Origin: Micromonospora yasonensis
Lineage (GTDB): Bacteria; Actinomycetota; Actinomycetes; Mycobacteriales; Micromonosporaceae
Reading direction: 5' to 3'
Assembly: GCF_026013475.1 (NCBI RefSeq)
Contig: NZ_JAPDPH010000009.1
Location: forward strand, 1 to 64,000
Length of the DNA: 64,000 bases
Shown here: positions 28,384 to 54,470 of the stretch, piece after piece
How positions within the stretch are numbered: position 1 is the first letter of the stretch
Layout: every line of letters begins with the position of its first letter
Translations under genes and position numbers: made by a program
Notes under the pieces: generated by a model
The model's input: only the letters and a program-made list of their open reading frames with translations
What the model was told of the DNA's origin: nothing
Database searches by the model: none

Positions 28384-28817
28384 CGTGGGCGGTCCTCTTC
28401 GTAACGGCGGTCTGGACTGACGTCGCGCGGGGCGACGGTCATGGTCTGTCTCCTGCGGCGACGGCGGGTGACGCTCCGGTGGCCGGCAGTCGCCGTACGC
28501 GGTCCCGTTCACCGGACCGGAAATTAGCCGACCGCGTCCGGGTATGACCGCCGGCGTCGAGTCGGCTTCGCGTCAGTTCGGGCCGGGTCACCTGGCGCTG
28601 ATCGTTCCGACACACAGCGTCCCGGGTGGTCGTCGGGATGCCCGGATCGGCGGTGATTCGCGAGCGTAGATGTGAATTCGCGGAATTCGAATTCATGCCA
28701 CTGAGATACCTCTTTACCGTCGGCGGTCGACGGACGTCGCGCACCGAACGGTGCAACCGGACGGACGTACGGCGGATCTCAGGCGACGCTCAGGTTCCGG
28801 GCCGTACCGTGTGCCGC
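28384..28817. other. 434-base divergent intergenic region with a GAATTC triple repeat
   Basis: No convincing gene lies here. The most striking element is at 28674-28694, where three GAATTC hexamers occur in 21 bases (starts 28674, 28683, 28689) within an AT-rich island that continues to about 28720. It lies about 125 bases upstream of the hydrolase-ABC fusion gene, a position suited to an operator or activator site. The half nearer to the roadblock gene shows nothing I can identify. Confidence 0.4.
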
Positions 28818-31682
28818 ATGAGATCACCGCTGGACGCTGCCCGGCGTGCCCTGGGCACCCGCCGTCGCCGGGTCGTCGCCGCGACGGTGGTGGTGGTCCT
28901 GGCGGCCGCCGCCGTGGCCTGGGCGGCCCGGCCGCAGCGACCCGGCTTCCGGGCCGAGTCGGCCGTGGTGACCGTCCGGTCCGGACCGGACGGGAACCAG
29001 CCGGTCGACCTGGACACCACGCTCTACCTGCCCGAGGACGCCTCGTCCGGGCACCGGGTGCCGGCCGTCCTGCTGGCGCACGGCTTCGGCGGCACCAAGG
29101 AGTCGGTGCGCACCGACGCCGAGGACCTGGTCGCCCAGGGGTACGCGGTGCTCACCTGGACTGCCCGCGGGTTCGGCCGCAGCGGCGGCGAGATCCACCT
29201 GGACAGCCCGGACTACGAGGTACGGGACGCATCCCGGCTGCTCGACCGGCTCGCCGCCCGCCCGGACATCCGCCTCGACGCCGCCGGCGACCCCCGGGTG
29301 GGGGTGGTCGGCGGCTCGTACGGCGGCGGCCTGGCGCTGCTGCTGGCCGCCCAGGACCCCCGGGTCGACGCGATCGTCCCCATGATCACCTGGAACGACC
29401 TGTCCCGGGCGTTCCTGCCGGAGAGCACCGGCCGGGCGCCCACCGACGGTGTGTTCAAGAAGGGCTGGGCCGGCATCTTCTTCGGCGGCGGCGGGAACGC
29501 GGGCTCCGGTCCGTCCGGCGTCTCCGGCAGCACCGCCGGCCAGCCCGAGGGCGCACCCGCCTCGGCCGGCGCGCCCAGCCCACAGCCCGGCGCCGGGCCC
29601 GGCACCGGCCCCGGCCGGGCCCCCGGCGGCGCGGCCGACCCGGCCTGCGGCCGGTTCGCCGCCGAGGTCTGCGCCGCGTACCTGCGGATCGCCACCACCG
29701 GCCGGGCCGACCAGGCGGCGGTGGACCTGCTCCGGCGGTCCTCCCCGGCCGGCGTGCTGGACCGGATCAAGGCCCCCACCCTGCTGGTGCAGGGGGAGGC
29801 GGACACCCTCTTCCCGCTCACCGAGGCGGACGCCAACGCGCGCGGCATCGCCGCCGCCGGCACCCCGGTCCGGGTCGCCTGGTTCACCGGCGGCCACGAC
29901 GGCGGCGCGGGACCCACGTCCGATTCGGACCGGGTGAAGTTCCTGACCGCGCAGTGGCTCGACCACTACGTCAAGGGCGAGGGCGCGGCACCCGGCCAGG
30001 GCTTCACCTTCTCCCGGATCGCCGGGTTCGACGCGCTCGACCGAGGCCTGGTGGCCACCGGCTACAAGATCACCGACTATCCGGGGGTGACCGGGCAGTC
30101 CCGCCGGGACGTCGCGCTGAGCGGCCCGGCCCAGATGGTCGCCAACCCGCCCAACGGGAACCCGGGGGCGATCTCCTCGGTGCCGTTCGCCGGGGCGCTC
30201 GGCTCCCTGGTGAGCGGGGTTGCCGGCGACATCCCCGGCCAGCACGCCCGGTTCGAGTCCGCCCCGCTGGACGAGCCGGTCGACGTGGTCGGCGCGCCGA
30301 CCGTGCGGATCCGGGCGGCCTCACCCACCGGCGAGGCGGTGCTGTTCGTCAAGCTCTACGACGTCGACCCGAAGGGCGCGGCCACCCTGCCCGACGGCCT
30401 GGTCGCCCCGGTCCGGCTCACCGGCCTGCCGCGTACCGTCGAGGCCGCCCAGCCGGTCGCCGTGACCCTGCCGGCCATCGTCCGGCGGATCGAGGCCGGG
30501 CACCGGCTGCGGCTCGTGGTCGCCACCTCCGACCAGGCGTACGCCACCCCGGCCGAGCCGGCCGTCTACCAGGTGGCCCTGGGCGACGGGCCGTTGGCGG
30601 TGCCCACCGTCGACGCCCAGCCGATCCCCACCTCGGCCGCGATCTGGCGCTGGGTGCTGGCCGGGTTGCTCGCCGCCATCGCGGTCGGGCTCCTGGTGGT
30701 CGTCCTGGTCGTCCGCCGCCGGCACCGCCGCCAGGACAGCTCCGTCCACCCGGAGTACGCGGACGTCCCGCTCGCCGTCCGGGAACTGCGCAAGGAGTAC
30801 GCGGACGGCTTCGTCGCCGTCTCCCACGTCGACTTCGAGGTGCACCCCGGTCAGGTCGTCGGCCTGCTCGGCCCGAACGGTGCCGGCAAGACCACCACCC
30901 TGCGGGTGCTGATGGGGCTGACCCAGCCCACCGCCGGTGAGATCTACGTGTTCGGGCACCGGCTGGTGCCCGGCTCGCCGGTGCTCTCCCGGATCGGCGC
31001 GCTGGTGGAGGGGCCCGGCTTCCTGCCGCACCTGTCCGGCCTGGACAACCTGAAGGCGTACTGGCGGGCGACCGGGCGGCCGTGGGCGGACGCGCACTTC
31101 GACGAGGCGCTGGAGATCGCCGGGCTGGGCTCGTCGGTCAACCGGAGGACGAAGAACTACAGCCACGGCATGCGCCAGCGGCTGGCCATCGCGCAGGCCA
31201 TGCTCGGCCTGCCCGAGCTGCTGGTGCTCGACGAGCCGACGGACGGCCTGGACCCGCCGCAGATCGCCGAGATGCGCCGGGTGCTCCGGCGGTACGCCAC
31301 CGATGGCCGGGCGGTGCTCGTCTCCAGCCACCTGCTGGCCGAGGTGGAGCAGACCTGCACCCACGCGGTGGTGGTGAACAAGGGCCGGATCGTCGCCTCG
31401 GGCCCGGTCGAGGAGATCGTCGGCGAGTCGCCGAGCGTGCTGTTCGACGTGAGCGACCCGGACGCCGCCCGGACCGTGCTCGACCGGCTGACCGGCGTAC
31501 GGGTGCTGCCCGACGGCGACGGCGGGCTGGTGGTGGACACCAACGGCACCGCCCGCAGCGAGGTGGTGGCCGAGCTGGTCCGGGCCGGCATCGGAGTGGA
31601 CCGGGTGGTGCCCCGGCGCCGCCTGGAGGACGCGTTCCTCGCCCTGGTCGGCGAGAACTCTCGGGGAAGCGGGGACCGGTGA
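28818..31682 (+). CDS. Membrane-anchored alpha/beta hydrolase fused to an ABC transporter ATPase
   Basis: A 954-residue fusion. TM1 (about 18-37) precedes an S15/CocE-type alpha/beta hydrolase with a full triad: S167 in GGSYGGG, D329 in QGEADTL and H360 in GGHDGG. A Gly/Pro/Ala-rich insertion lies at about 225-275 and an X-Pro-peptidase-like beta domain at about 470-600. TM2 (about 609-633) leads to a cytosolic ABC ATPase with Walker A LLGPNGAGKTTT (about 685), signature YSHGMRQRLAIAQ (about 781) and Walker B LLVLDEPTDGLDPPQ. The two helices would place the hydrolase outside and the ATPase inside. It probably pairs with the permease that follows. Start at the ATG before the first helix. Confidence 0.88.
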   Translation: MRSPLDAARRALGTRRRRVVAATVVVVLAAAAVAWAARPQRPGFRAESAVVTVRSGPDGNQPVDLDTTLYLPEDASSGHRVPAVLLAHGFGGTKESVRTDAEDLVAQGYAVLTWTARGFGRSGGEIHLDSPDYEVRDASRLLDRLAARPDIRLDAAGDPRVGVVGGSYGGGLALLLAAQDPRVDAIVPMITWNDLSRAFLPESTGRAPTDGVFKKGWAGIFFGGGGNAGSGPSGVSGSTAGQPEGAPASAGAPSPQPGAGPGTGPGRAPGGAADPACGRFAAEVCAAYLRIATTGRADQAAVDLLRRSSPAGVLDRIKAPTLLVQGEADTLFPLTEADANARGIAAAGTPVRVAWFTGGHDGGAGPTSDSDRVKFLTAQWLDHYVKGEGAAPGQGFTFSRIAGFDALDRGLVATGYKITDYPGVTGQSRRDVALSGPAQMVANPPNGNPGAISSVPFAGALGSLVSGVAGDIPGQHARFESAPLDEPVDVVGAPTVRIRAASPTGEAVLFVKLYDVDPKGAATLPDGLVAPVRLTGLPRTVEAAQPVAVTLPAIVRRIEAGHRLRLVVATSDQAYATPAEPAVYQVALGDGPLAVPTVDAQPIPTSAAIWRWVLAGLLAAIAVGLLVVVLVVRRRHRRQDSSVHPEYADVPLAVRELRKEYADGFVAVSHVDFEVHPGQVVGLLGPNGAGKTTTLRVLMGLTQPTAGEIYVFGHRLVPGSPVLSRIGALVEGPGFLPHLSGLDNLKAYWRATGRPWADAHFDEALEIAGLGSSVNRRTKNYSHGMRQRLAIAQAMLGLPELLVLDEPTDGLDPPQIAEMRRVLRRYATDGRAVLVSSHLLAEVEQTCTHAVVVNKGRIVASGPVEEIVGESPSVLFDVSDPDAARTVLDRLTGVRVLPDGDGGLVVDTNGTARSEVVAELVRAGIGVDRVVPRRRLEDAFLALVGENSRGSGDR

Positions 31683-32980: not shown

Positions 32981-33946
32981 ATGCGTCCTCGTCACGCCGC
33001 CTTCCCGCTCTTCGCCGTGTTGAGCTGGGGCGTCATGTTCCCCGTCCTGGCCAGCGCGCTCGCCCGGGTGGACGCGCTCAACCTGACCACCGCCCGGTAC
33101 GTGCTCGCCACCGCGGTGCTGCTCGCCCTGCTGCTGGCCCGGGAGGGGCTGGCCGCCCTCCGCGCCCTCGGGCGCGGGGTCGAGGTGGTGCTGCTCGGGG
33201 TGATCGGGTTCGCCGGTTTCAACGTGCTGACCAACCTCGCCCTCGGCCACGCCGCGCCGCAGCAGATCGCCCTCTTCGCCGCCACCACCCCGCTGGCCAC
33301 CCAGCTCGTCCGCTGGGCGCGCGACGGCGTCCGCCCCCGGCCGGTGCTGCTCGGCCTGTCGCTGGCCGCCCTGGTCGGGGTCGGCCTGGTGATCACCCGC
33401 GGCCGGCTCGACGGGCTGGGCCAGTTCGGCGTCGGCGGGCTGCTCATGATCGGCGCGGTGCTCGGCTGGGCTATCTACACCCACGGCGCGAGCCGCTTCC
33501 CCGAGTACTCCCCGCTGCGCTACACCACGCTGACCGCCATCGCCGGCACGCTCGCCATGGTCGCCGCCAGCGCCGTCGCCGACCTCACCGGGCTCCAGCA
33601 CGCGCCGGCCGCCGCCGACCTCGTCGCGATCGCCCCGCAGCTGGCGTACGCGGTGGTCGTCGCCGCGGTGCTCGCGGTCCTGGCCTGGAACACCGGGGTA
33701 CGCCGGCTCGGCGCGGCCGACGCCGCGCTGTTCATGAACCTGGTCCCGGTGACCACGTTCCTGGTGCAGATCCTGCGCGGCTACCGGCCCGGCGCGGTGG
33801 AGTTGATCGGCGCGGCGCTGACCATCGCCGCCCTGGTCGCCGCCAACCTCGCCACCCGTACCCGCAAGGCCCCCGCCACCCCCGCCCCGGCCGCGGTGGT
33901 CGACCGCCCGGCGGTCGTCGATCCCGTCGCCGCCATCGCCCGCTGA
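32981..33946 (+). CDS. EamA (DMT) family transporter
   Basis: A 321-residue membrane protein with ten hydrophobic helices in two EamA repeats: AAFPLFAVLSWGVMFPVLAS opens the first and GGLLMIGAVLGWAIYTHGAS the second. DMT/EamA proteins export or import amino acids, sugars or drugs. The last 30 residues are a Pro/Ala-rich cytosolic tail. The ATG at 32981 follows a GGAGCTGTG. Its promoter lies between the two ArsR-type palindromes, so expression is probably induced by a ligand of the divergent repressor. Confidence 0.87.
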   Translation: MRPRHAAFPLFAVLSWGVMFPVLASALARVDALNLTTARYVLATAVLLALLLAREGLAALRALGRGVEVVLLGVIGFAGFNVLTNLALGHAAPQQIALFAATTPLATQLVRWARDGVRPRPVLLGLSLAALVGVGLVITRGRLDGLGQFGVGGLLMIGAVLGWAIYTHGASRFPEYSPLRYTTLTAIAGTLAMVAASAVADLTGLQHAPAAADLVAIAPQLAYAVVVAAVLAVLAWNTGVRRLGAADAALFMNLVPVTTFLVQILRGYRPGAVELIGAALTIAALVAANLATRTRKAPATPAPAAVVDRPAVVDPVAAIAR

Positions 33947-34041
33947 GCCAGGCGGGCGGGTGGGCTCGCCGGCTCACACCGTGGGAACCCCGGGTGGCGG
34001 GCGCGGTGACTGGGCATAGACTCGGCGGCACAACTGCATAC

Positions 34042-34170
34042 CTCATCCAGAGGGGCTGAGGGATACGGCCCGACGACGCCCCGGCAACCACCCGCGCGCT
34101 CGACGACGAGCGACGCCGGGCAGGTGCCAATTCCGTCCCCGCCGCACGAGGCGATGCGGGGAAAGATGAG
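34042..34170 (+). promoter_or_regulatory. SAM-I (S-box) riboswitch upstream of a threonine synthase gene
   Basis: The RNA shows SAM-I hallmarks in order: CTCATC (P1 5' arm, 34042-34047), GAGGGGCTGAGGGATACGGC with CGACGACGCCCCGGCAACC, then GGTGCCAATTCC, a P4 stem (CCCCGC 34137-34142 with GCGGGG 34156-34161) and GAAAGATGAG whose GATGAG (34165-34170) closes P1. The ribosome-binding sequence GAGAGGA (34168-34174) overlaps the 3' arm of P1, so SAM binding would hide it and reduce translation. A -10-like TAGACT is at 34017-34022. Confidence 0.93.
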
Positions 34171-34184
34171 AGGAACTCCTCGAC

Positions 34185-35474
34185 ATGACGTCGATCCTTC
34201 CCGCCCCGTCCGGCATCGACACCACCCTCAGCCCGGCCCGCGCCCTGGTCTGTCGCGCCTGTTCCGCGCGCTACCCGCTCGCCGCGCAGCACGCCTGCTA
34301 CGAGTGCTTCGGCCCGCTGGAGGTCGACTACGACGCCGCGGCCCTGGCCGCCGTCACCCGGGAACAGATCGAGGCCGGCCCGAAGAACCTCTGGCGGTAC
34401 GCCGCCCTGCTCCCCGCCGGCCAGGACCCGGCCACCCGGGTGGCCCTCGACCCGGGGCTGACCCCGCTGGTCGCGGCCCCGCACCTCGGCGCCGAGCTGG
34501 GCTTCACCGCGCCGCTCTGGGTCAAGGACGACAGCGGCAACCCGACCCACTCGTTCAAGGACCGGGTGGTGTCGGTGGCGCTGACCGCCGCCCGCGCGCT
34601 CGGCTTCACCCGGTACGCCTGCGCCTCCACCGGCAACCTGGCCAACTCGGTGGCCGCCCACGCGGCCCGGGCCGGGGTGCCGTCGGTGGTCTTCATCCCC
34701 AGCGACCTGGAGCAGGGCAAGGTGGTGACCACCGCCGTCTACGGCGGCGACCTGGTCGCCATCGACGGCTCGTACGACGACGTGAACCGGCTCTGCGGCG
34801 AGCTGGTGGAGACCGACGAGTTCGAGGACACCGCCTTCGTCAACGTCAACGTCCGGCCCTACTACGCCGAGGGCTCCAAGACCCTCGGGTACGAGGTGGC
34901 CGAGCAGCTCGGCTGGCGGATCCCGGCTCAGGTGGTCATCCCGATGGCCAGCGGCGAGCTGCTCACGAAGATCGACAAGGCGTTCTCCGAGCTGGTCGAG
35001 ATCGGCCTGGTCGAGGCGCCGGCCGGCGGCTGGAAAGTGTTCGGCGCCCAGTCCGCCGGCTGCAACCCGATCGCCACCGCGCTGCACGCGGACAGCGACA
35101 CCATCACCCCGGTCAAGCCGACCGGCATCGCCAAGTCGCTGAACATCGGCGACCCGGCCGCCGGCCTCTACGCCCTTGAGGCGGTACGCCGCACCGGTGG
35201 CTGGATGGAGTACGCCGACGACGACGAGATCCGGGCCGGCATCCGGCTGCTGGCCCGGACCACCGGCGTCTTCGCCGAGACCGCCGGCGGGGTCACCGTG
35301 GCCGTGCTCCGCAAGCTGGTGGCGTCCGGAAAGCTCGACCCGGCCGCGGAGACCGTCGTCTTCAACACCGGTGAGGGCCTGAAGACCCTCGACGCGGTGG
35401 CCGCCCAGGTCGGCCCCACCCACCGCATCAAGCCGTCGCTGCGCGCCGCCCGCGACGCCGGCCTCCTCGGCTGA
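34185..35474 (+). CDS. thrC: Threonine synthase family PLP enzyme
   Basis: A 429-residue PLP enzyme of fold type II. The N-terminus LVCRACSARYPLAAQHACYECF is a small four-cysteine unit seen in the longer threonine synthase branch; DSGNPTHSFKDRVVSVAL contains the lysine that binds PLP; STGNLANSVAAHAARAGVPS binds phosphate. The canonical reaction makes threonine from O-phosphohomoserine. It is longer than the roughly 350-residue enzymes of thr operons and stands alone behind a SAM-I riboswitch, so it could be a specialised paralogue such as a cysteate synthase-like or sulfur-linked enzyme. The ATG at 34185 has AGAGGA ten bases upstream. Confidence 0.85.
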   Translation: MTSILPAPSGIDTTLSPARALVCRACSARYPLAAQHACYECFGPLEVDYDAAALAAVTREQIEAGPKNLWRYAALLPAGQDPATRVALDPGLTPLVAAPHLGAELGFTAPLWVKDDSGNPTHSFKDRVVSVALTAARALGFTRYACASTGNLANSVAAHAARAGVPSVVFIPSDLEQGKVVTTAVYGGDLVAIDGSYDDVNRLCGELVETDEFEDTAFVNVNVRPYYAEGSKTLGYEVAEQLGWRIPAQVVIPMASGELLTKIDKAFSELVEIGLVEAPAGGWKVFGAQSAGCNPIATALHADSDTITPVKPTGIAKSLNIGDPAAGLYALEAVRRTGGWMEYADDDEIRAGIRLLARTTGVFAETAGGVTVAVLRKLVASGKLDPAAETVVFNTGEGLKTLDAVAAQVGPTHRIKPSLRAARDAGLLG

Positions 35475-35489
35475 GCTCCTGGTCAACTC

Positions 35490-35512
35490 ATCCGCGCGGG
35501 GGAGGCGCGGAT
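35490..35512 (+). terminator. Hairpin after the threonine synthase gene
   Basis: ATCCGCGC (35490-35497) and GCGCGGAT (35505-35512) pair exactly around a 7-base loop, starting 16 bases after the stop. There is no T tail; identification as a terminator rests on position. Confidence 0.5.
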
Positions 35513-35590
35513 CGCCCGGGCGGGGGATCGGGGAGATCCGGTGGGTAACTGGCGATTTGCTGTGAGTGTGGAAAACCCGCCGACAAGGAC

Positions 35591-35743
35591 TTGACGGCAG
35601 GAACCGGACGGCGCAAGATGCTCGGTGCGGGAGGGCATCCGCCGAAGACTTTTTAAGTTCTTGCGACCCAACGCCGGAGGCGTTGTGCGGACGTCCCTCC
35701 CGACCAACGTCCGAAGGGGCCGGCGGAAAACCGCTGGCCCCTT
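35591..35743 (+). other. Structured leader or small RNA candidate upstream of a double-GNAT gene
   Basis: TTGACG (35591-35596) with an 18-base spacer and AAGATG (35615-35620) is a fair promoter. Downstream come a small hairpin CAACGCC-gga-GGCGTTG (35669-35685) and a strong 13-base stem AAGGGGCCGGCGG with CCGCTGGCCCCTT around AAAA (35714-35743, one G-T pair). The acetyltransferase start is 28 bases later, so this could be a leader with a regulatory hairpin or a short RNA ending at the last stem. I recognise no known family. Confidence 0.4.
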
Positions 35744-35770
35744 CGCCGTGCGTGCCGCAGGCTCACCCGT

Positions 35771-36790
35771 ATGGCCATCTCCGTCACGCCGCTCGACCCG
35801 AACGATCAGCCGACTCTCGACGCGGTGTACCGGATCGCGGTGGCGGCCCAGAGCGCGGACGAACCCGACCTTCCTCCGCCGTGCCGGCGCCGCTTCGAGG
35901 CGCCGCTGTGGCACCCGATGCCCGGCATCGACACCCGCTGGTCGGTGGCCCGCCTCGACGGGGTGCCCGTCGGCTGGCTCCGGCTGTACCTGCACACCCT
36001 CGACAACACCGAGAACGCCAGCGTCGAGCTGGTGGTGGACCCGGCGTACCGGCGGCGCGGGGTGGGGCGCGCGCTGCACGAGCACGGCCGGACGGTGCTG
36101 CGGGAGCACGGCGGCAAGCGAATGGTCGGCTCGACCGTCACCCCGCTGCCCGGTGCGGAGAACCGGGAGTTGCCCGGTGCGGCCTTCGCCGCCGCCGTCG
36201 GCGCGCGGCCGGCACTCGCCGACGTCCGCCGCCGGCTCGACGTCACCACGCTCGACCGGCCCCGGCTGGCGTCCCTGCTGGCGGATGCCCGCGCGGCCGC
36301 GGCCGGCTACCGCACGGTCCGCTGGGGCGATCATGTCCCCGAGGAGCACGTCGCCGACGTCGCCCACCTGGAGGGCCGGCTGCTGCTCGACGCCCCGCTC
36401 GGGGAGTTGGCGTGGGAGCAGGAGAAGATGGACGCGGAGCGCATCCGGGGCGTGGAGCGGGCGCTGGACGCCCGGGGCGTCCGCCGGTACAACGCCGGCG
36501 CGGTGCACGAGGCGTCCGGCCGGCTGGTCGCCTGGAGCCAGCTCAGCCTCGAGGCGAGCAGCGTCCAGCACGCCTGGCAGCAGATCACCATCGTCGACCC
36601 GGCGCATCGCGGCCACCGGCTCGGCCTGCTCTGCAAGGCCGAGAACCTGGAGCACACGCTGTCCCACGAGCCGGGGCTGCGCGTGATCGACACCTACAAC
36701 GCGGCGGAGAACACGCACATGATCGCGATCAACGAGCAACTCGGCTTCCGGCCGGCGGCCGGCTCGACGGACTGGCAGTTGACGATCTGA
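35771..36790 (+). CDS. Tandem-domain GNAT acetyltransferase
   Basis: A 339-residue protein with two GNAT domains. The N-terminal one is intact: VELVVDPAYRRRGVGRALHEHG carries the R-x-x-G-x-G/A acetyl-CoA loop. The C-terminal one (WSQLSLEASSVQHAWQQITI, then DPAHRGHRLGLLCKAENLE and NAAENTHMIAINEQLGF) retains R-G-x-x-L-G and the N-x-x-M-x-x-x-N-x-x-L-G-F ending. Such double GNATs occur in mycothiol and antibiotic modification, but no clear subfamily match can be assigned. The ATG at 35771 lacks a strong ribosome-binding site and follows a structured leader. Confidence 0.82.
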   Translation: MAISVTPLDPNDQPTLDAVYRIAVAAQSADEPDLPPPCRRRFEAPLWHPMPGIDTRWSVARLDGVPVGWLRLYLHTLDNTENASVELVVDPAYRRRGVGRALHEHGRTVLREHGGKRMVGSTVTPLPGAENRELPGAAFAAAVGARPALADVRRRLDVTTLDRPRLASLLADARAAAAGYRTVRWGDHVPEEHVADVAHLEGRLLLDAPLGELAWEQEKMDAERIRGVERALDARGVRRYNAGAVHEASGRLVAWSQLSLEASSVQHAWQQITIVDPAHRGHRLGLLCKAENLEHTLSHEPGLRVIDTYNAAENTHMIAINEQLGFRPAAGSTDWQLTI

Positions 36791-39236: not shown

Positions 39237-39458
39237 GCCGCAATGCATACCTGAGGGCCGCCGGGGGGCGCCCACCCGGGGCGGATGCCGGCCGGAATAT
39301 GCCCGATTTGTGGTCGTGCGCCGTCGTCACGCCTCGTGTAGCGTGCGATTTCGGTCACCGATTCAGCGGCCATCGCCGATCGCCGAACCGGTGGTCCACC
39401 GGTGCCGGTCTGCCGGCCTCCGGATTGTGGAACGCCGCGCAGAGTGAGGAAGTGCACC

Positions 39459-39662
39459 GTGGCACAGGGCACCGTCAAGTGGTTCAACGCCGAAAAGGGC
39501 TACGGCTTCATCGCCGTCGACGGCGGGCAGGACGTCTTCGTCCACTTCTCCGCGATCGAGATGGACGGCTACAAGGCGCTGGACGACGGCCAGCGGGTCG
39601 AGTTCGAGATCGCCCAGGGCCAGAAGGGCCCGCAGGCAGAGCGGGTCCGCGTCATCGCCTGA
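39459..39662 (+). CDS. Cold-shock domain protein (CspA family)
   Basis: A 67-residue single cold-shock domain, the exact family length: [17 protein letters not shown] contains RNP1 (K-G-Y-G-F-I), and [11 protein letters not shown] contains RNP2 (D-V-F-V-H-F). It binds single-stranded RNA/DNA and acts as an RNA chaperone in cold or growth-phase adaptation. The GTG at 39459 is preceded by GTGAGGA, and the 183-base gap upstream is long enough to hold a regulatory leader, though I see no specific motif. It is followed by an intrinsic terminator, so it is monocistronic. Its neighbour groEL is 1.6 kb downstream. Confidence 0.95.
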
Positions 39663-41122: not shown

Positions 41123-42928
<1,806 letters not shown>

Positions 42929-53032: not shown

Positions 53033-54295
53033 TCAGGGAAGGGTGGCGAGGGCGGTGAGGAGGGCGTCGACGTCGGCCTCGGTGGTGCCAAGGCCGAGGC
53101 TGGCCCGCAGCGCGGTGGGCGGCAGGTCGTCCCGGCCGCTCCGGGCCGCCGCCTCGACCAGCAGCCGCCGGGCCAGGGGGTGGGCACAGAAGAGACCATC
53201 CCGTACCCCGATCCGGTGCACCCGCGCCAGGTGGGCCGCGACGTCGGCGGAATCCCGCCCGGCGACCACGAAGGAGGCGATGCCCACCCGGGGCGCGTCC
53301 GGGCCGAAGGTACGCAGCTCCACCACGTGCGGCAGGGCGGCGAGCCCGTCCCGCAGCCGGGACAGCAACGCCTGCTCCCGGGCGTGCAGCGCGCCCCGGT
53401 CGGCGTCGGCGAGGGCGGCACAGACCGCCGCCAGGGCCACCGCGCCGAGCAGGTTCGGCGTGCCCGCCTCGTGCCGGGCCGGCCCGGTCGCCCAACGCAC
53501 CTCGTGGGTGGCCGCACCGACGTGGCTGGTGGCCCCGCCGCCGGACAGGTACGGCGGGGCCTCGTCCAGCCAGTCGCCCCGCCCGACGAGGACGCCCGCG
53601 CCGAACGGGGCGTACAGCTTGTGGCCCGAGAGCGCCAGGTAGTCCACGTCCAGCCGGGCCAGGTCCACCGGGGCGTGCGGGGCGAGCTGGGCGGCGTCCA
53701 CCAGGATCCGGGCACCGTTGCGCCGGGCGACCCGGGCCAGCTCGGCCACCGGCCAACGTTCCCCGGTCACGTTGCTCGCCCCGGTCACCGCGACCAGCAC
53801 CGGCAGACCGGGCCGGGCGTCGCGGGCCAGCTCGCCGAGGGCGGCGTCGAGCGCGCGTACCGCCCCGGCCGGGCTGGCCGGCACGGGCAGCCGGACCGAG
53901 CCGCGCGGCCAGGGCAGCAGGTTGGCGTGGTGCTCGCCGCCGAAGGTGACCACGGTGGTGCCGGCGGGCAACGCCCGGGCCAGCAGGTTGATCGCGTCGG
54001 TGGTGTTCCGGGTGAAGATCACATGATCCTCGGGGCGGGCGCCGACGAAGTCGCCGACCGTCTGCCGGGCCCGCTCGTAGGCCAGCGTGCAGCGCTGCGA
54101 GAGCGCGCCGGCGCCGCGGTGCACGCTCGCGTACCAGGGCAGCAGCTCGGCCACCGCGTCGGCCGCGGCCCGCGCGCACGGCGCGCTCGCGGCGTGGTCC
54201 AGGTTGATCTCCCCCGGTACGCCGAGGACGCCGAGCGGATCCGGCCGGGTGGACGCCGGCAGCGTGGGCAGCGAGGGTACGAGGGTGACGGTCAT
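53033..54295 (-). CDS. Class V aminotransferase (cysteine desulfurase-like) under SAM-IV control
   Basis: A 420-residue PLP enzyme of the class V/cysteine desulfurase fold: INLDHAASAPCARAAADAVA, FTRNTTDAINLLARAL (phosphate loop), VTGASNVTGERWPV, VDAAQLAPHAPVDL and LALSGHKLYAPFGAGVLVG, where K in S-G-H-K is the PLP lysine. Cysteine desulfurases proper have a cysteine loop in the C-terminal third; here only RRLL and GLFCAHPLARRLL are seen, so desulfurase activity is uncertain and another sulfur-linked aminotransferase is possible. A SAM-IV riboswitch directly upstream ties it to methionine/cysteine metabolism. The ATG at 54295 has GGGAGGT 7 bases upstream. Confidence 0.87.
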   Translation of the reverse strand: MTVTLVPSLPTLPASTRPDPLGVLGVPGEINLDHAASAPCARAAADAVAELLPWYASVHRGAGALSQRCTLAYERARQTVGDFVGARPEDHVIFTRNTTDAINLLARALPAGTTVVTFGGEHHANLLPWPRGSVRLPVPASPAGAVRALDAALGELARDARPGLPVLVAVTGASNVTGERWPVAELARVARRNGARILVDAAQLAPHAPVDLARLDVDYLALSGHKLYAPFGAGVLVGRGDWLDEAPPYLSGGGATSHVGAATHEVRWATGPARHEAGTPNLLGAVALAAVCAALADADRGALHAREQALLSRLRDGLAALPHVVELRTFGPDAPRVGIASFVVAGRDSADVAAHLARVHRIGVRDGLFCAHPLARRLLVEAAARSGRDDLPPTALRASLGLGTTEADVDALLTALATLP

Positions 54296-54356
54296 GCGGG
54301 AACCTCCCGGGTCCAGGGGACCCCGGGGTTGGGCACCGGGACGGGGTCCGCGCTTG

Positions 54357-54470
54357 CCCAGCACGCGGTTCGGGCTGGGCCCGGTCATCACCCGGGGCAC
54401 CCCACCGCGAACTCGACGAGGGTTGCCGGCCAGCAAGCCGGGGCTTGACGCTGGCACTCGTGACCTGTCC
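54357..54470 (-). promoter_or_regulatory. SAM-IV riboswitch
   Basis: On the minus strand the RNA reads GGTCA (54465-54461), GAGTGCCAGCGTCAAGCCCC, GGCTTGCTGGCCGGCAACCC, later GGTGGGGTGCCCCGGGTGAT and TGACC (54387-54383) closing P1, then a hairpin CCCAGC...GCTGGG (54379-54357) 3' of the core. The GAGTGCCAGC...GGCTTGCTGG P2, the GGCAACCC core and the extra 3' hairpin mark SAM-IV rather than SAM-I. A roughly 60-base expression platform with GC-rich stems lies between it and the gene's GGGAGGT. A -10 region should lie near 54480-54500; I see no clear one. Confidence 0.93.

Follow-up and report, generated by a model that had tools for sequence, protein, structure and literature searches.

SAM-I Leader and Predicted Mode of Control

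The window, by which is meant the whole 64,000-nt stretch of Micromonospora yasonensis DNA analysed here, carries on its plus strand a complete SAM-I (S-box) riboswitch aptamer (34040-34172), the end of which lies 12 nt before a metM-like gene (34185-35474, +). From the ORF, profile, alignment, tree, and structure searches, this gene encodes a 429-residue fold-type II PLP enzyme with the profile label threonine synthase. The full SAM-I core described in a first-pass annotation of the sequence was borne out by cmscan, which matched RF00162 over model positions 1-108 with 69.1 bits (E 4.8e-14). As this score lies above the gathering score of 44.4, the element belongs to RF00162 by its aptamer core and fold. 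It was the single SAM-I found in the genome, where 150 of 363 candidates were scored.

In the minimum-energy fold of the leader (z -3.48; 2 of 200 shuffles folded equally well), the 5' arm of P1, CUCAUC (34042-34047, +), pairs with the 3' arm, GAUGAG (34165-34170, +). As had been claimed from the sequence, the 3' arm shares bases with the likely ribosome-binding site, a probable Shine-Dalgarno sequence GAGAGGA (34168-34174, +) located about 10 nt 5' of the ATG. The same fold also pairs 34171-34174 with 34195-34198 inside the coding start, to which little weight was given because the folded stretch ended at 34200. A similar 5' arm and a like arrangement of the Shine-Dalgarno sequence were seen in related leaders, of which 42 of the 79 named were examined (from Micromonosporaceae, Glycomyces, Geodermatophilaceae, Frankia, Streptomycetaceae, Streptosporangiales, and one Nanopelagicales). 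The 3' arm was kept as GATGAG in 41 of these 42, and an in-frame start codon lay 7 to 26 nt past the aptamer in 40, the exceptions being L135 and L137 as scanned. The sequence of P1 was almost invariant among the 42 leaders, which was counted against the overall reading of the locus given in the Discussion.

A search of 33900-35800 turned up no terminator-like site, and terminator-type control of the metM-like gene was rejected on this basis. The simplest reading of the leader is a translational OFF switch, in which plentiful SAM would stabilise P1, allowing its 3' arm to mask the ribosome-binding site and silence the gene, while scarcity of SAM would free the site. The first-pass annotation had also raised an ON direction, with high SAM favouring threonine. 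Its one support was the earlier argument from an assumed threonine role; nothing was found pointing to ON, whereas the overlap of P1 with the likely ribosome-binding site and the lack of a terminator-like site make up a layout in which a stabilised P1 should prevent translation. Such a switch is not needed here and is considered highly improbable.

A Probable MetM-Type Protein Behind the Leader

Profile searches placed the 429-residue protein among PALP/ThrC-like proteins. The N-terminal four-cysteine unit noted at first pass (C23, C26, C38, and C41; 34251-34307, +) proved invariant in 22 aligned MetM-like proteins, taken from MetM loci picked for spread and leaving out L054, which has an in-frame TGA. 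K125 of the motif NPTHSFKDR (34557-34559, +) was likewise invariant in the alignment and is expected to be the PLP lysine. Compared with solved bacterial threonine synthases (2d1f, 6cgq, and 1uim), the protein shares the fold and the PLP site, but has the extra four-cysteine unit, shows NPTHSFKDR where these align NPTGSFKDR, and stands behind a SAM-I leader. The NCBI threonine synthase profile TIGR00260 was passed with 237.4 bits against a cut-off of 167.1 (308 for the genome's own hom-linked ThrC), while PRK08197 remained below its cut-off (278.9 versus 303 bits).

The gene is not part of a thr operon, in agreement with the first-pass annotation: an EamA-type transporter gene lies upstream, GNAT and aldehyde dehydrogenase genes lie downstream, and neither hom nor thrB is linked to it. 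The separate ThrC of roughly 350 residues whose existence had been raised as a question is present, being a 349-residue protein encoded beside the homoserine dehydrogenase gene (hom) on another contig (C117) and 35% identical to the 429-residue protein. A third ThrC-like paralogue, of the PRK08197 type (599 bits) and 396 residues long, is encoded on contig C142 (L210:3305-4495, +) and is 36% identical. Identity to the SAM-I-led, metO-linked orthologues of family f4, which we take to be Streptomyces, was by contrast 57-60%. A quick 83-row tree set 81 MetM-like rows (of 139 MetM loci, picked for spread, with L054 left out) apart from both own paralogues, which had very long branches; the separating branch was valued at 93 and was not starred. 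By identity and by tree, the protein groups with the MetM clade. The premise of a threonine gene was therefore likely an error, given this grouping and the separate ThrC beside hom, and the 429-residue protein is probably a candidate MetM-type, O-phosphohomoserine-dependent homocysteine synthase and not the housekeeping ThrC.

Plant threonine synthase is activated by SAM at the protein level. It was an Arabidopsis threonine synthase with SAM (2c2b) that gave the best fold match (Z 46.7, rmsd 2.3, 405 aligned residues) to an AlphaFold2 model of the 429-residue protein (mean pLDDT 89.7); the two would share a branch point, but the mRNA would be the target of SAM in the present case. The next matches were bacterial ThrC proteins (1v7c, Z 41.6, rmsd 2.3, 347 aligned), with 32-34% identity to those solved. 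As modelled, the fold alone does not separate MetM from ThrC. These matches, together with the TIGR00260 score, would also suit a genuine second threonine synthase that high SAM represses at translation. In addition, a cyanobacterial (Microcystis) MetM-like ThrC, 51.6% identical to S. albulus MetM, makes threonine in vitro and on high expression brought no rise of methionine in the cell, according to PMC12172450. Against this explanation stands, at this level, the separate ThrC beside hom.

A further possibility had been a paralogue with a sulfur-linked role, such as cysteate synthase-like chemistry. The sulfur-linked role holds up in the form of a MetM-type candidate; the cysteate part does not. 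The fold type is the same, and the structure search also returned CapA2 of Alistipes, presumably cysteate synthase-like judging from its name (Z 38.9, rmsd 2.8, 368 aligned). Its identity was, however, only 21%, the cysteate synthase profile TIGR03844 scored 33.2 bits where the cut-off is 324.9, which places the protein outside that family, and neither SAM-I nor the methionine gene swap described below fits such an enzyme, leaving this explanation with next to no probability.

According to PMC12172450, MetM was identified by Hasebe et al. 2024 (doi 10.1128/aem.01247-24) as a Streptomyces homocysteine synthase that converts O-phosphohomoserine; it relieves methionine auxotrophy and is important for methionine prototrophy in S. 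albulus, where a SAM riboswitch lies upstream of metM and metO is named as a sulfur carrier family gene. The protein type, the upstream SAM riboswitch, and the O-phosphohomoserine branch point are alike in the present case. SLIV_16930-SLIV_16925 of S. lividans, which has RF00162 in front and is filed under threonine biosynthesis, shares both of these properties with the metM-like gene, but is listed as a two-gene unit where a single gene is found here, and the available part of PMC8079986 does not link it to methionine.

SAM-I Linkage and the Methionine Route in Related Genomes

MetM-like proteins, at E up to 1e-60, were found in 75 of 198 genomes sampled across the phylum and in 115 of 121 sampled Micromonosporaceae genomes, the source genome being counted in both. 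All 115 of the latter carried SAM-I directly upstream of the gene, with 4 to 264 nt (median 26) between the aptamer end and the start of the match, and the five Micromonosporaceae genomes without any SAM-I match were all without MetM. Among the best 80 named loci from species genomes, a sample that leans toward close relatives, SAM-I lay upstream in 79, and the 80th had no upstream sequence. Outside the family, SAM-I reached the gathering score at 18 of the 29 best loci of the phylum sample and was absent at that score from 11. Nine further SAM-I copies were found in Micromonosporaceae, five of which were inspected. On inspection, the second copies in four genomes (L215, L216, L217, and L219) precede amino-acid ABC transporter-like genes, possibly for methionine uptake, and that at L218 precedes an acetyltransferase-like gene.

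A single sampled Micromonosporaceae genome, G227, has SAM-I yet no MetM match. Downstream of its aptamer (L115:2470-2591), and in the same orientation, are metX, metB, and a homoserine dehydrogenase-like ORF; the MetX (homoserine O-succinyltransferase) and cystathionine gamma-synthase models were passed (421.8 versus 296 and 562.5 versus 504.6 bits, respectively), and the third ORF was below its cut-offs. A carrier profile search found no CysO/MetO-type carrier in this genome. Since SAM-I leads metX-metB here, the switch appears to stay with the enzyme feeding homocysteine. This swap, as well as the tight link of MetM to SAM-I and, as set out below, to sulfur carriers, also argues against the second, SAM-repressed threonine synthase considered above, which is regarded as unlikely.

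MetX was found neither in the source genome (best 20.5 bits) nor in any of eight Micromonospora genomes, and matched in 33 of the 115 Micromonosporaceae MetM genomes, the match in G240 being weak. In the 198 phylum genomes, MetM and MetX tended to avoid each other (Fisher p 0.0012, relatedness not corrected): 16 genomes had both, against an expected 26.9, so that MetX was present in 16 of 75 MetM genomes, while 59 had MetM alone, 55 had MetX alone, and 68 lacked both. The source genome had 15 PF01053 matches, the six strongest of which were scanned against profile models. None of the six passed an O-acetylhomoserine/O-succinylhomoserine sulfhydrylase cut-off among the best 25 models each; one passed the cystathionine gamma-synthase model PRK07811 and one the cystathionine gamma-lyase model PRK07582. 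Taken together, the placement with MetM, the separate ThrC, the absence of any MetX match, the SAM-I linkage, and the G227 swap give the locus the look of a conventional methionine OFF switch.

Absence of metO from the Locus

Hasebe et al. are said to have described, in 2024, thiocarboxylated MetO as the sulfur donor, encoded by metO downstream of metM. In the window, the usual Streptomyces metO site (35475-35770, +) is without a carrier-protein ORF, as judged from the ORF list and a carrier HMM. This 296-nt gap contains no ORF and the HMM was empty over 1.5 kb downstream (L026), and a hidden metO in the gap was rejected. A divergent metO elsewhere in the genome was also rejected: the four PF02597 matches were read as CysO (beside CysM), ThiS, MoaD (after a moaA-like ORF), and the TGS domain of RelA, none of them as metO, and the A1 carrier model gave one match. 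As metO does not follow metM, the known two-gene system is incomplete in this genome, which, unlike S. albulus, has neither a metO downstream nor one found elsewhere, and only CysO.

Across Streptomycetaceae, Streptosporangiales, and the majority of distant relatives, metM is followed by a gene, often overlapping its stop codon, for a small protein with AVAGG at its C-terminus. Such a carrier followed metM at 24 of the 29 phylum loci (L054 counted by carrier match) and at 36 of the best 80 named loci. It was absent from 42 of these 80, belonging to Micromonosporaceae, Phytomonospora, Glycomyces, Geodermatophilaceae, Frankia, and several metagenome assemblies, and from all 28 Micromonosporaceae loci whose downstream sequence was long enough to judge (L057-L084, representing 28 of 114 family MetM genomes besides the source genome). 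Loci L056, L144, and L193, with less than 100 nt downstream, were uninformative, and one metO-less record, titled Bacillus and flagged unverified, groups with Blastococcus in the MetM tree. Mapped on the MetM protein tree, presence of metO needs six changes, their direction not being inferred.

The surroundings of metM are recognisable even without metO. In G193, of family f4, cold-shock protein (csp) and groEL motifs lie 742 and 1298 nt after metM, with metO between. The Pfam CSD and Cpn60 matches and a synteny scan identified the same metM-(metO)-csp-groEL neighbourhood in the window, where a csp gene (39402-39662, +) and a groEL-like gene (41147-42928, +) have their motifs 4002 and 5843 nt after metM, behind the GNAT and aldehyde dehydrogenase genes. 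In Geodermatophilaceae, the csp motif was located 196 to 262 nt after metM in 10 of 10 informative loci. Since this neighbourhood is conserved, metO is missing from its usual place. Two side observations may be added: in the Geodermatophilaceae loci L140, L142, L143, L145-L150, and L152, the cold-shock gene directly follows metM, in the position of metO in Streptomyces, and an ORF at 28626-31682 (+) of the window encodes a 1018-residue protein in which an X-Pro dipeptidyl-peptidase-like hydrolase is joined to an ABC ATPase domain.

CysO as the Remaining Carrier

The sole CysO/MetO-type carrier found in the genome is encoded on contig C157, in a cluster of a JAB-domain protein, CysO, and CysM. 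Mec-CysO-CysM is a cysteine pathway of M. tuberculosis, and the cluster is like it in having a JAB-domain protein, a ThiS-type carrier, and a CysM-like protein; it differs in that CysO is tailed after GG and is proposed to serve MetM too. A CysM-like motif was seen close behind the best carrier in 27 of the 30 Micromonosporaceae loci read; in three of the 30 (L103, L104, and L114) the pattern took a wrong frame for the carrier. In a quick, weakly resolved carrier tree (73 rows of 103 carriers found, 91 columns, L205 left out), the Micromonosporaceae rows were placed with the CysO of family f4, and CysO and MetO split at 97. In each of the seven f4 genomes two carriers were found, with one of the pair encoded next to MetM. 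Six of eight Micromonospora genomes have exactly one.

Carriers were present in 115 of 115 Micromonosporaceae MetM genomes. The three genomes among the 121 in which no carrier matched (G227, G230, and G256, two of which belong to one genus) were all without MetM (p 7e-5), and the other three MetM-less genomes had carriers. In the phylum sample, 75 of 75 MetM genomes had a carrier, compared with 52 of 123 MetM-less genomes, a comparison with some circularity, since the count includes metO itself. Five phylum genomes had no metO adjoining MetM; four of them had one carrier and one had three. This co-occurrence fits CysO serving MetM, as an association and not as proof.

As no dedicated metO was found in the genome, the carrier for MetM is most likely CysO, and its use by MetM is given about an even chance. 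The alternative would be MetM acting as proposed with sulfur from free sulfide or another donor, such as MoaD, ThiS, or something unrecognised. This would agree with the lack of a dedicated carrier and with the tree, by which the remaining carrier is CysO and not MetO; MetM was, however, seen solely in company with a CysO/MetO-type carrier, in the family as in the phylum, with the circularity just mentioned, and the alternative donor is held to be rather unlikely.

Many Micromonosporaceae CysO proteins (L012/L116 on contig C157; L085-L114) have a C-terminal tail after GG, beginning AFGFAAAA in the source genome. A few in the family have 0-5 residues there; 10 of 11 other CysO proteins read had 0-2, and one had 13. 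Such a tail should need trimming, for which the JAB-domain protein encoded next to CysO is a possible candidate.

A SAM-IV riboswitch (54345-54465, minus strand, 102 bits) lies about 18 kb from metM and leads a gene for a SufS-like cysteine desulfurase homologue (53033-54295, minus strand), which scored 256 bits, under the cut-off of 475. PMC8079986 has a similar SAM-IV/desulfurase-like pair in S. lividans. The SufS-like protein could be a sulfur mobiliser for CysO and MetM.

Discussion

The locus as a whole is most readily understood as a standard translational SAM-I OFF switch on a metM orthologue making homocysteine, a reading in which we have good confidence and in which SAM binding, the direction of switching, and the reaction are inferred. 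Weighing against it are the missing metO, the passing score on TIGR00260, the threonine made by the Microcystis enzyme, the genomes that carry both MetX and MetM, the 11 distant loci without SAM-I at the gathering score, and the match of one protein of the genome to a cystathionine gamma-synthase model. For methionine synthesis, MetM would draw O-phosphohomoserine from the threonine branch and turn it into homocysteine, using sulfur brought in by a small carrier protein. That carrier would most likely be CysO, which otherwise feeds the cysteine synthase CysM. The pairing of SAM-I with metM is already known, and the absence of metO, with the likely borrowing of CysO, makes the present case a variant of it. 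No description of MetM without metO was recognised in the literature searched; the original 2024 MetM/MetO study may discuss it.

With the protein placed beside MetM, the apparent paradox of a SAM off-switch on threonine synthesis is removed. The placement also suggests a methionine role for genes of the phylum that databases label threonine synthase and that stand behind SAM-I leaders. The metO-less form raises the question of whether cysteine and homocysteine synthesis can both draw on one sulfur carrier. For the Micromonosporaceae and their kin, we tentatively propose, at somewhat less than even probability, that one thiocarboxylated CysO feeds both CysM and MetM and that SAM-I on metM sets the share of the carrier pool and of O-phosphohomoserine that goes to methionine. 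If true, such a shared carrier would tie the cysteine and homocysteine pathways together in a large actinobacterial group.
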